Below are positions 27,085 through 31,065 of a stretch of DNA of 64,000 nt, one piece after another. The DNA is taken from assembly GCF_000955905.1 (NCBI RefSeq), contig NZ_CP011097.1, positions 1,018,582 to 1,082,581 of the forward strand, written 5' to 3'. The notes beneath the pieces were generated by a model, which did no database searches, had not been told where the DNA came from, and saw only the letters and a program-made list of their open reading frames with translations. How positions within the stretch are numbered: position 1 is the stretch's first letter; every line of letters starts with the position of its first letter. The position numbers were made by a program, and so were the translations under genes. Source of the stretch: Candidatus Nitrosotenuis cloacae (GTDB lineage: Archaea; Thermoproteota; Nitrososphaeria; Nitrososphaerales; Nitrosopumilaceae).

Positions 27085-28173
27085 TTGAGGATAATATTCC
27101 ATATCGATTTTGACTATTTTTTTGCCCAGTGTGAAGAGATTCGAAATCACACCCTAAAGACAAAGCCAGTATGCGTTTGCATATTCTCAGACAGAGGAGG
27201 CGATAGCGGAGCAATAGCTACTTCCAACTATATTGCAAGAAAATATGGTGTCAAATCTGGCATGCCAATAAAATTTGCCAAGGCACGACTCAAAGATATT
27301 CCAGAATCGGCGTTCTTGCCGGCAGACTTTCCATATTATTCCGAGATATCGCAAAAGGCAATGGAGATTATGAAAAACTACGCAGACATATTCGAGTATG
27401 TGGGAAGAGATGAGGCATACTTGGATGTCACAAAGAGAACAGAAGTCAAGTTTTCAAATGCCACACATTTGGCACAGCAGCTAAAAAACCAGATTCGTAC
27501 CGAGATAAAGATGACATGTACCGTTGGCATATCTGGCAACAAACTGGTATCAAAGATTGCATCCGGATTCAAAAAACCAGACGGGTTGACCGTGGTCGAG
27601 CCGGAAAATGTCGAGACATTTCTTGGCCAATTAAAGGTAGGCGATATTCCCGGAATAGGCAAGGTAACTGAGGAAAAGTTTGCAGAGATGAATCTCAGGA
27701 CAATTGCAGATCTTAGAAAACTAGACATTTTTACTCTGAACAAAATGTTTGGCAGAAAAATATCATCATACATGTACAATGCTGCCCGTGGAATTGATGA
27801 CGATCCAGTAGCCGAGCGCGCAGACACCATACAATATTCTAGAATCGTAACACTCAAGCAGGATTCCAAAGACTTTGGATTTTTATCAGAAGCAATTGAT
27901 GAGATTTGCTCTGACTTACACCAAACCATACTAAAGCACAAAAAAATGTTCAGAACAGTTACAATCCAGTTTGTCCAATCTGATCTTACCAACAAGACAA
28001 AATCAAAGACGCTCAGAAACCCCACTTCCAGTCTGGATGAACTAAAAAAAGCATCCATCATACTGCTCCAAGAAGCATTGGTTGATCAGACAAACAATGT
28101 TCGAAGGCTTGGCGTCAAGGTATCGGAATTATCAGACATGGAAGGACAAAGCTCGATTACGAACTTCTTTTAG
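27085..28173 (+). CDS. dinB: Y-family DNA polymerase IV (Dpo4/Dbh type)
   Basis: A 362-residue translesion polymerase. Catalytic Asp8 (HIDFDYFFAQ, with Tyr11 as steric gate), Asp109-Glu110 (VGRDEAYLDV), the helix-hairpin-helix GDIPGIGKVTEEKF, and a little-finger domain follow. The protein ends in GQSSITNFF, a PCNA-interacting (PIP) box. It bypasses DNA lesions with low fidelity. TTG start at 27085. It overlaps the convergent sortase gene by 4 bases. Confidence 0.94.
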   Translation: MRIIFHIDFDYFFAQCEEIRNHTLKTKPVCVCIFSDRGGDSGAIATSNYIARKYGVKSGMPIKFAKARLKDIPESAFLPADFPYYSEISQKAMEIMKNYADIFEYVGRDEAYLDVTKRTEVKFSNATHLAQQLKNQIRTEIKMTCTVGISGNKLVSKIASGFKKPDGLTVVEPENVETFLGQLKVGDIPGIGKVTEEKFAEMNLRTIADLRKLDIFTLNKMFGRKISSYMYNAARGIDDDPVAERADTIQYSRIVTLKQDSKDFGFLSEAIDEICSDLHQTILKHKKMFRTVTIQFVQSDLTNKTKSKTLRNPTSSLDELKKASIILLQEALVDQTNNVRRLGVKVSELSDMEGQSSITNFF

Positions 28174-29087
28174 GCAGACAATTTCTTGATGCGCCTAGTC
28201 TCTATTGCAGTTACTGCAAACAAGAACGCAAAGAGCCACGGCAAGAACATTATCTCGCCTGCGATTCCGTGAAATTCCTCAAATTCAACCGGATTTGTTG
28301 AGACCTTGAGCACAAACAGAGACAGCGAGAATATTCTAATCATGTTGACACCTATGGTTCCGGCAATACCTATTGCAAAGTACATTGCCTTGCGCCTTGG
28401 GGCAATGTTCATCTTTAGCAAAAATGCCATCATCACCAAGGAATAGATGATAACGCTGTGAACTCCAGCAGAAGGCCAAAACACTTGCAGTGCCATTGAA
28501 CCATGCTCACCTTTTAGGAACATCAGGTTGTTTCTGGCTATTGCGGTCCCAAGATCAAAGAAATTGATTATTCCAACATTTGCCTTGACAAAATATGGCA
28601 CAATGTATTGTAGAGGCCCTAGCGTATCATATGGGAAAAACGCATCCAAGGATAGTATGATGGCGCTTCCGCACAAAAAGATTGGACCAGCTGGTGCGAT
28701 TCTAATCCATCTTTTGCCAAATAGTATGGTTACGGCAGCAATCACAAAGGTTGCCATTACAACAAAGTCCCACATCCAAGTCCAGGAGTGAATCAGGTTT
28801 ACATTGTATGATTTTGCGCCTTCCTGGATGTATTCTCTTAATCCAAAGTCAAGCGATATCAAATAAGCAAAGACAGCTACAGCAAATGGAATCGTCATTA
28901 GAACTCTTTTTTGTGACACTATGGTTTTGATGCCAATTAATTCTGCTGCAACAAATGCCATTGCAAACAAAAATCCTCCCCTTCCTTGGTTCCAGCTCAG
29001 AGAAAACGAGTCAGGATAATAGGCAAGGGCAAACAGTACAGGACTGACTATAATTATAATGGCAAATGTAATGGAACGATTTTGCAA
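28170..29087 (-). CDS. Archaeosortase/exosortase-like membrane protein
   Basis: A 305-residue protein with about eight transmembrane helices. Three conserved sites line up with the exosortase/archaeosortase active site: WPSAGVHS with Ser206 where most family members have Cys, NMIRI with Arg251, and EFHGIAGE with His273. The family cleaves C-terminal sorting signals (PEFG-CTERM in Thaumarchaeota) from exported proteins. I recall that thaumarchaeal members carry Ser at the Cys site, but have not checked it. No PEFG-tailed substrate is visible in the window. It starts 35 bases after the tubulin-partner gene on the same strand. Confidence 0.75.
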   Translation of the reverse strand: MQNRSITFAIIIIVSPVLFALAYYPDSFSLSWNQGRGGFLFAMAFVAAELIGIKTIVSQKRVLMTIPFAVAVFAYLISLDFGLREYIQEGAKSYNVNLIHSWTWMWDFVVMATFVIAAVTILFGKRWIRIAPAGPIFLCGSAIILSLDAFFPYDTLGPLQYIVPYFVKANVGIINFFDLGTAIARNNLMFLKGEHGSMALQVFWPSAGVHSVIIYSLVMMAFLLKMNIAPRRKAMYFAIGIAGTIGVNMIRIFSLSLFVLKVSTNPVEFEEFHGIAGEIMFLPWLFAFLFAVTAIETRRIKKLSA

Positions 29088-29122: not shown

Positions 29123-29668
29123 TTATTTTTTCTTGATGGTGAGTGTTTTTTGAATTTCACTCATTGAACTGATGAATTTTTGTTTTGCCTCGTATTCATT
29201 TGTCACTTTGACTATTATTTCGGTTGATGATAGCAAGACATCCTTTACCACGAGTGGTGCAGATAGCCCCAGAATCTCTGACAGTAAATCAAACAGATTT
29301 GGGAATTTAGTTTGGTTCTTGTACTGGTATTGGACTCGACCATCCTTGAATGTTGGCTTTGGGTCCAATGGAATGACCAATTCAGGCGAGGTCATATCAT
29401 TGATGAATTTTGCAGTGTCGTTTTTGATTGATGTGGATAGTTCCTCGCGCTTTGCCTCTAAGTTTGCCTTGGTTGTTTCTAGTGTGGCTTGCTGATCATC
29501 ATATTGAGTTCCAATCATTTTTGCAAATGCAGATTCAGTTGGTTTTGTTAGCGGGATTTCGTGTAGCTTCATGTTTACGACTTTAAGTTCTTCTTCGAGT
29601 TGGACCAGATATTTGCGGTTTGCCTTAACTTGGCCGGCCAATTCTTCAAGATAGGCAAAATCAGACAT
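29123..29668 (-). CDS. Coiled-coil protein encoded directly after artubulin
   Basis: A 181-residue protein of unknown family. Residues 5-35 and 60-95 form charged heptad-like helices (YLEELAGQVKANRKYLVQL; ATLETTKANLEAKREEL), and residues 100-181 form a beta/alpha domain containing DPKPTFKDGRVQYQYKNQTK and ending in a basic TIKKK. No signal peptide or membrane helix. The start codon lies 5 bases after the artubulin stop, so the two proteins are surely co-expressed and may interact, for example as regulator, cap or linker of filaments (inference). Confidence 0.75.
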   Translation of the reverse strand: MSDFAYLEELAGQVKANRKYLVQLEEELKVVNMKLHEIPLTKPTESAFAKMIGTQYDDQQATLETTKANLEAKREELSTSIKNDTAKFINDMTSPELVIPLDPKPTFKDGRVQYQYKNQTKFPNLFDLLSEILGLSAPLVVKDVLLSSTEIIVKVTNEYEAKQKFISSMSEIQKTLTIKKK

Positions 29669-29673
29669 GGTTT

Positions 29674-31065
29674 CTAACTAAACTGGTGCACTACATCCAT
29701 GAGTGACTGCTTGAAATCTTCAGTTGTAAGGCCCCATCTGCCATACTCATCTTTGTATCCATCCCAGGCCTCTTCTGCCTCTCTTGCAATCTCCAATATC
29801 TTGGGGCCTACCGCCTTGGTATTGACCAGTATGGTGATGTTTGCCTGCTCTTTGTCCATGATTGGGATCTTGATGAATATCATTCTGGAATCCTCAATGT
29901 TGAATCGCTCTTTGATCAATCTCTTTAGAATCTCTCGCTCTTTGATGTCAAATTCTCCCTTTACCTTTACTAGTGCACAGCAAGAGTCCTTTGGTCCGCC
30001 GTGGTTTCTAATGTCGGTCTCATCAATATCAAACAGTATTGCGTCCTGCTTTTTGTTGATATTATCAATGATACTATCCATGGTGTTGTGCTTGTTGCCA
30101 GATAAGGTGTTGAGATTCCACTGGTCCTCATCAGGTAGGATTGGTATGACCCATGGGATTGCAAACTTGGGACGCTTGGTTGCAAGCCATGTCCTATAGT
30201 TTGACATGTCCCATTCTGTTTCTCTTGCAAATGATGATATGAACATGGAAATTGCGTTTGCTGCAATCAGATTCATTCCCTTGTAGTCCTTCCATCCGAC
30301 TTCGTGCTCTTTTGGTAGATCATCAATGATGGATGGAATCTTTTCTACTCGTTTTTCGTACTTGTGCGCAACCTCTCGTAGTCTTTTGTTTGCAAACAAA
30401 ATAGAGCAATCAGAATACTTGATTTGGTATTCCAAATTCATCACAATGTTGATGGCAGCTGCTTCTAGGATTACTGGATCCCATCCAAATTCCGGCAACA
30501 GTCCCAGTGTGGCAATTGTTGCGTGTTCTTTGGTGTTGCTTTTGATAAATTCAATAAAAGAGCAGGCAAATGAGCTTCCAGTTCCACCACCCATCGCAAA
30601 TGGCACCGTATAACCTCGGACCGGCTCTGGAGATAATGCGGATAGTTGCTTTGCAAAGTCCCACTTTTGGGTCACCTCGTTTTTGAATCTGGAGCGTCCT
30701 TCTGCCCAGTTTCTTGCAGCACCCCCAGCGCCATGAATTACATGCTTGTCTCGCAGAGCGAACAAGTCAGGATATGATTGTAAGATTAGATTTGCGGCCC
30801 TTGGGTCCAAATCAACTAGCAATGCTCTTGGAATTAGTGGTGTTTCTCCACCAGTATATGCGCCTGGGAATCTCAGAATTGTACTGCCATATCGCTTTAG
30901 AATTCTAGACTCGTCTTTTGTGTCCTTTAGAACCGGCTTTAGTGGGTCTGCGCCAACATCAAGCAGTAACCTACGGTAGGATTCTGCTCCAAGACCTATT
31001 CCACAGTGACCAAAACAGGTCATTAGTACTGGTGCTGGTGGTAATGGAGCGTTAGGTTGCGACAT
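29674..31065 (-). CDS. Artubulin: archaeal tubulin homologue
   Basis: A 463-residue tubulin-superfamily GTPase that is closer to tubulin than FtsZ. Matching sites: FGHCGIGLG (18-26; tubulin GQCGNQIG), PRALLVDLDP (79-88; tubulin PRAVLVDLEP), GAGGAARNWAEG (112-123; tubulin GAGNNWAKG), the G-box GGGTGSS (159-165), and guanine-contact Asn226 and Asn265. Length matches tubulin (about 450), not FtsZ (about 350-400), and the acidic-helical C-terminus follows tubulin helices H11-H12. The T7 loop (ETEWDMSNYR, 282-291) lacks the GxLN...D pattern, so filament GTP hydrolysis may differ. Such artubulins were reported from Nitrosoarchaeum. The first 12 residues are Pro-rich. Confidence 0.92.
   Translation of the reverse strand: MSQPNAPLPPAPVLMTCFGHCGIGLGAESYRRLLLDVGADPLKPVLKDTKDESRILKRYGSTILRFPGAYTGGETPLIPRALLVDLDPRAANLILQSYPDLFALRDKHVIHGAGGAARNWAEGRSRFKNEVTQKWDFAKQLSALSPEPVRGYTVPFAMGGGTGSSFACSFIEFIKSNTKEHATIATLGLLPEFGWDPVILEAAAINIVMNLEYQIKYSDCSILFANKRLREVAHKYEKRVEKIPSIIDDLPKEHEVGWKDYKGMNLIAANAISMFISSFARETEWDMSNYRTWLATKRPKFAIPWVIPILPDEDQWNLNTLSGNKHNTMDSIIDNINKKQDAILFDIDETDIRNHGGPKDSCCALVKVKGEFDIKEREILKRLIKERFNIEDSRMIFIKIPIMDKEQANITILVNTKAVGPKILEIAREAEEAWDGYKDEYGRWGLTTEDFKQSLMDVVHQFS

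Follow-up and report, generated by a model that had tools for sequence, protein, structure and literature searches.

A conserved artubulin of Candidatus Nitrosotenuis cloacae with a constant coiled-coil partner gene and an asparagine at the T7 catalytic position

The window (the whole 64,000-nucleotide stretch of Candidatus Nitrosotenuis cloacae DNA that was analysed) contains a gene for an artubulin, an archaeal tubulin that is followed throughout the family by a gene for one coiled-coil protein and that carries asparagine where the T7 loop of α-tubulin has its catalytic glutamate. Judged by its residues and gene context, the protein is best explained, with a probability of roughly 0.6, as a dispensable protein that binds GTP, forms filaments with only weak self-activated GTPase activity and works together with this partner. 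No functional assay of an artubulin was found in the literature since 2012, and the fixed partner provides a concrete interaction with which to probe what these proteins do, while the T7 asparagine yields a sharp prediction for the GTPase.

Identity and conservation of the artubulin gene

The gene was delineated as follows:
29674–31065, minus strand: artubulin gene, 463 residues, an open reading frame with an ATG start, supported by Pfam, PDB matches, hhalign and tree

The host genome is a single complete contig of 1,620,156 bases, in which archaeal amoA is present. The artubulin matched the Pfam Tubulin family (PF00091) over residues 18–233 with an E-value of 6.8e-14 and a score of 53 bits (cut-off 33 bits). 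Open reading frame, Pfam match and tree all agree with the first-pass annotation, which had described a bona fide archaeal tubulin of 463 residues. Identity was ~79% with the orthologues of the Nitrosarchaeum lineage and, over the full length, ~76–80% with the artubulins of the Nitrosarchaeum and Nitrosotalea loci, which identifies the gene as the Nitrosarchaeum orthologue. Relatives with 73–99% identity were present on 57 named genome contigs, comprising Nitrosotenuis, Nitrosotalea, Nitrosarchaeum, some Nitrosopumilus and related metagenome-assembled genomes. Artubulins were named in 2012 from Nitrosarchaeum limnia and koreensis (Yutin and Koonin, PMC3349469), and in 2013 one was reported in Nitrosotenuis uzonensis, also with 79% identity to Nitrosarchaeum (PMC3835317); the gene is a member of an already known protein family and is not itself new.

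All the tubulin signatures listed in the first-pass annotation were found, and the key residues are invariant in 79 distinct full-length artubulins, namely G19, H20, G22, R80, D85, D87, P88, the segment GGAARNWAEG (residues 114–123), G160–G163, N226 and N265. Ratios of dN/dS against close relatives were ~0.02–0.03, which indicates strong purifying selection; the values are rough because dS is near saturation. The N. chungbukensis artubulin is 92% identical, compared with 65–82% for the other nearby genes.

Placement among tubulins

The best 60 PDB sequence matches listed were all tubulins, with FtsZ and CetZ absent among them, and ranked Asgard tubulins before γ-tubulin and the remaining tubulins. 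With hhalign, residues 13–454 were aligned to residues 4–414 of α-, β- and γ-tubulin over 382 columns at a probability of 98.6%. This nearly full-length alignment and the PDB matches bear out the earlier claim that the protein is neither FtsZ nor CetZ. In the maximum-likelihood tree, artubulins were grouped with eukaryotic and Asgard tubulins at a support of 100/99, and approximately unbiased (AU) tests rejected a grouping with CetZ (p 7e-5) or with FtsZ (p 5e-4), the placement that had been named beforehand as evidence to the contrary. An MAFFT L-INS-i alignment of artubulins with α-, β- and γ-tubulin, CetZ and FtsZ, which is independent of hhalign, showed tubulin-only motifs in T1, T3 and the NWAxG region, together with a G-box and an H7 asparagine of tubulin type, except for the last G-box glycine. 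The human α- and β-tubulin and Methanocaldococcus jannaschii FtsZ reference sequences are identical to PDB chains; the CetZ rows were taken from PDB matches, the Asgard rows are limited to the GTPase domain, and the γ-tubulin row was partly checked.

The first-pass annotation noted that artubulins are discussed as relatives of the ancestor of eukaryotic tubulin; their position near the root of the tubulin tree has been described as "never fully resolved" (PMC13394414). In our small tree, with few and partly incomplete rows, a group of eukaryotic and Asgard tubulins excluded the artubulins at 94/94. Addition of the diverged artubulins of two further family-level groups (f4 and f9, described below) to the profile improved the Asgard tubulin match from an E-value of 1e-17 to 6e-22. 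The AlphaFold model was poor (pLDDT 42; shallow alignment of 41 near-identical sequences), with its last helices, 416–442 and 448–462, at the position expected for H11–H12. The 50 Foldseek matches listed for this poor model were all tubulins, but with TM-scores of ~0.3.

Convergence or long-branch attraction could in principle give a strongly diverged FtsZ or CetZ paralogue a tubulin-like appearance, as the long branch between artubulins and tubulins (~1.5 changes per site) and the confinement of single-sequence matches to the GTPase domain might suggest. The 100/99 tubulin clade, the AU rejection of both alternative groupings and the presence in T1, T3 and the NWAxG region of motifs that only tubulins have make this very improbable. 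Lower still stands the idea of a degenerate relic without function, which we regard as practically refuted: the gene has been lost in several lineages, but its dN/dS ratio and its better conservation relative to its neighbours reveal selection.

Nucleotide site and T7 loop

The following features, all of the artubulin gene on the minus strand, were assigned:
30988–31011, minus strand: T1 loop GHCGIGLG, residues 19–26 (GQCGNQIG in tubulin), from alignment and family conservation
30802–30819, minus strand: T3-region motif LVDLDP, residues 83–88 (LVDLEP in tubulin), from alignment and family conservation
30571–30591, minus strand: T4 G-box GGGTGSS, residues 159–165 (GGGTGSG in tubulin), from family conservation
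30388–30390, minus strand: N226, the guanine-contact asparagine of tubulin (DNEAL-type motif), from alignment and family conservation
30271–30273, minus strand: N265, the H7 asparagine (DLN/NLN in tubulin), from alignment and family conservation
30184–30225, minus strand: T7/H8 stretch RETEWDMSNYRTWL, residues 281–294, from hhalign, MAFFT L-INS-i and family conservation

The proposed replacement of the last G-box glycine by serine was confirmed across the family, position 165 being serine in 76 of 79 artubulins and alanine in the other three. The T7 loop had been described as lacking the GxLN...D pattern, which held for the glycine and asparagine of GxLN, both gone, but not for the aspartate, which is kept as D286. 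Both hhalign and MAFFT L-INS-i superposed artubulin E284-W285-D286-M287-S288-N289 on α-tubulin N249-V-D251-L-T-E254. At the position of the catalytic E254, artubulins have asparagine (N289; 78/79) or serine (1/79) and never an acidic residue. The 79 proteins do not vary at D286, at E284 or in the G-box core, E282 is near-invariant (one aspartate), and the stretch RETEWDMSNYRTWL remains near-invariant even at 52% overall artubulin identity.

The equivalent residue is lysine in β-tubulin, glycine in γ-tubulin and acidic in FtsZ and CetZ; because of the β- and γ-tubulin residues, an acid in T7 is not required for membership of the tubulin family. In α-tubulin, E254 is the catalytic residue, and the lysines found there in β-tubulin (K254) and AtubA (K248) do not support hydrolysis (PMC13394414). 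As read from the alignments, the T7 change that would matter is that from E254 to N289 and not a loss of the aspartate. Since the catalytic acid is replaced by asparagine, artubulin homopolymers would be expected to show slow GTP hydrolysis or none, unless E282 or E284 substitutes for it. In the main texts of the papers searched, no earlier description of this asparagine was found.

The coiled-coil partner gene

Two features define the partner:
29123–29668, minus strand: artubulin partner gene, 181 residues, starting 5 bp after the artubulin stop codon
29393–29659, minus strand: N-terminal helices of the partner, residues 4–92, largely absent in artubulin-less Nitrososphaeraceae-like homologues

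Within a 400-genome sample of the class, the partner was present in all 86 genomes with artubulin, and it lay adjacent to artubulin on the same strand with a gap of 5–31 bp in 85 of 89 loci; comparison with the matching named contigs showed the remaining four to be cut by contig ends. The protein had no relative in Pfam, NCBIfam or PDB. Its predicted model was good (pLDDT 87) and consists of a helical hairpin followed by an α/β domain, for which the comparison with PDB folds gave no convincing match (best E-value 0.07). One genome of group f5 (G111; loci L103 and L104) possesses two complete artubulin–partner cassettes in different surroundings, with artubulins 85% and partners 62% identical, and these two artubulins could be a heteropolymer pair.

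Partner homologues also occur in two families without artubulin. In group f2 (L110–L115), they are full-length and directly follow a radical SAM gene, whereas in the Nitrososphaeraceae-like group f3 (L116–L121 and L126–L129), where no artubulin was found, they comprise 112–158 residues and lack the N-terminal hairpin; several of the latter (e.g. L116–L119) sit between EMG1/Nep1-like and Rpr2-like genes. These occurrences imply that part of the partner has an artubulin-independent role, and the N-terminal hairpin would be the best candidate for the artubulin-binding part. A hidden divergent tubulin beside the f2 and f3 homologues was sought and discarded, the neighbours being the radical SAM, EMG1/Nep1 and Rpr2 genes, and the tubulin-superfamily genes of f2 are FtsZ-like. 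In one f2 locus (L110), the partner homologue is found near archaellum genes.

Coiled-coil genes are known to lie near archaeal tubulin-like genes in general (PMC9871819), and among artubulin neighbours only a "conserved hypothetical protein" was listed in PMC3349469. An earlier description of the constant downstream partner was not found in the main texts of the papers searched. The partner is apparently obligate for artubulin and constitutes a new lead.

Distribution and natural losses

Diverged artubulin–partner pairs were detected in two further family-level groups, f4 and f9, with artubulin identities of 52–57%; archaeal amoA was not found in the 14 genomes of these groups that were searched. 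The main texts of the papers searched contained no earlier report of the pair in amoA-less lineages. These sequences should help to break the long branch that hampers tubulin-origin trees. The artubulin tree follows the family-level groups, as would be expected if the gene had been inherited vertically within the order and lost repeatedly. Outside the class Nitrososphaeria, no artubulin was found in a 398-genome sample of the phylum, and viral contigs gave no clear artubulin, with two weak matches of 25–30% only.

Three losses were recognised from the gene order. In G107, which retains the Nitrosarchaeum-type order of deaminase, CdvB, [artubulin–partner] and next gene, artubulin is gone and fragments of the partner total ~75 residues. 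The Nitrosotalea-type G086 has kept the TPR gene but has lost the artubulin behind it, and ~40 partner codons are left. The f9 genome G195 has also lost artubulin, and its partner gene carries a frameshift, a break that could be a sequencing or assembly error. Artubulin is therefore dispensable, as is its module with the partner, and the partner was not kept without it in three lineages. No earlier report of this joint decay was found in the papers searched.

A contig titled Gammaproteobacteria bacterium BBSC-SA02 (L002) carries a Nitrosotenuis artubulin region with the gene order kept and an artubulin of 96% identity; this record is probably mislabelled or contaminated.

Gene surroundings

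The artubulin–partner pair is constant, and the rest of its surroundings changes completely between genera: NreA and thaumarchaeosortase in Nitrosotenuis, a TPR gene in Nitrosotalea, CdvB in the Nitrosarchaeum-like group and other genes in f4 and f9. Each Nitrosarchaeum-like (g3) locus examined has a CdvB-family gene 74–231 bp upstream of artubulin and on its strand. All the other artubulin loci examined, those of Nitrosotenuis, Nitrosotalea, f4, f5 and f9, lack this neighbour, as had already been noted for N. uzonensis (PMC3835317). The CdvB paralogues of the N. cloacae genome lie elsewhere, none beside artubulin. Adjacency to Snf7/CdvB is a trait of one genus-level lineage and not of the artubulin family. 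Neither this confinement nor the retention of CdvB after artubulin loss was found described in the papers searched.

In the window, a thaumarchaeosortase gene (28170–29087, minus strand; TIGR04297, E-value 1e-151) follows the partner gene at a distance of 35 bp and may be co-transcribed with the pair in Nitrosotenuis; it is not linked in other genera. Most f4 loci (L094–L102) have a conserved gene of 311–325 residues, with no family assigned, after the pair; it was checked as a distant CdvB and is not one. In one of these loci (L099), a VWA-like gene lies upstream of the pair on the opposite strand.

Proposed function and alternatives

Under the preferred reading, that of a non-essential, weakly self-activated filament GTPase, artubulin would most likely bind GTP and form head-to-tail protofilaments in the manner of tubulin, with a T7 loop that probably cannot present the adjoining subunit's nucleotide with the usual catalytic acid. 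Filaments formed by self-assembly would then probably be GTP-stable or slow to hydrolyse, as is the α-tubulin site kept unhydrolysed by β-tubulin K254. Artubulin and the downstream coiled-coil protein (29123–29668) would form a two-gene module, accessory rather than essential, in which the partner may bind to artubulin, or to the filament, and regulate it, cross-link it or help it to assemble. A bolder version is put forward tentatively: an obligate cytoskeletal module of two components that is independent of ammonia oxidation and may be older than it in the order. One component would be a tubulin that has become GTP-stable through losing the T7 acid, the other a dedicated coiled-coil filament controller that might supply the hydrolysis switch in trans.

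Artubulin might instead hydrolyse GTP normally and form dynamic filaments, with E284 or E282 in place of α-tubulin E254. Both glutamates are near the kept D286, the former invariant and the latter nearly so, but the position that is acidic in α-tubulin, FtsZ and CetZ is asparagine in both alignments, and we consider this rather doubtful. Unlikely, and slightly more so, is a cell-division protein cooperating with ESCRT-III (CdvB), as proposed by Yutin and Koonin on the basis of an adjoining Snf7 gene (PMC3349469). The upstream CdvB-family gene of all g3 loci examined agrees with their proposal; against it, this neighbour is missing at all non-g3 artubulin loci examined, and the majority of the genomes sampled from the class have no artubulin, among them many complete genomes of its own family. 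The inference of a joint role in division is weakened because CdvB stays in G107, where artubulin was deleted, and because the adjacency exists only in the Nitrosarchaeum-like group.

Likeness to known systems

Asgard AtubA/B (24rt, 9f6t) and OdinTubulin (7evb) share the tubulin GTPase motifs with artubulin; AtubB was the best PDB match (E-value 6e-22 with the widened profile), and OdinTubulin matched at 2e-13. In the AtubA/AtubB gene pair both members are tubulins; in the artubulin pair only one is. Eukaryotic γ-tubulin, the best eukaryotic match, likewise lacks an acid at the E254 position. Nitrosarchaeum artubulins have identical tubulin-specific residues, but theirs are flanked by CdvB/Snf7 and the N. 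cloacae gene is not. Bacterial BtubA/B of Prosthecobacter is accompanied by a TPR protein, and Nitrosotalea artubulin loci also carry an upstream TPR gene, ~0.45 kb from artubulin with a 99-residue gene in between (L026:8731–9841); no TPR gene was observed next to artubulin in other lineages, and the likeness is probably coincidental.

The N. cloacae genome also encodes an FtsZ-like protein of its own, of 319 residues (L058:1021–1980, ~528 kb), with a degenerate G-box, AGKSGCA. Close homologues of this protein occur in other Nitrosopumilaceae.
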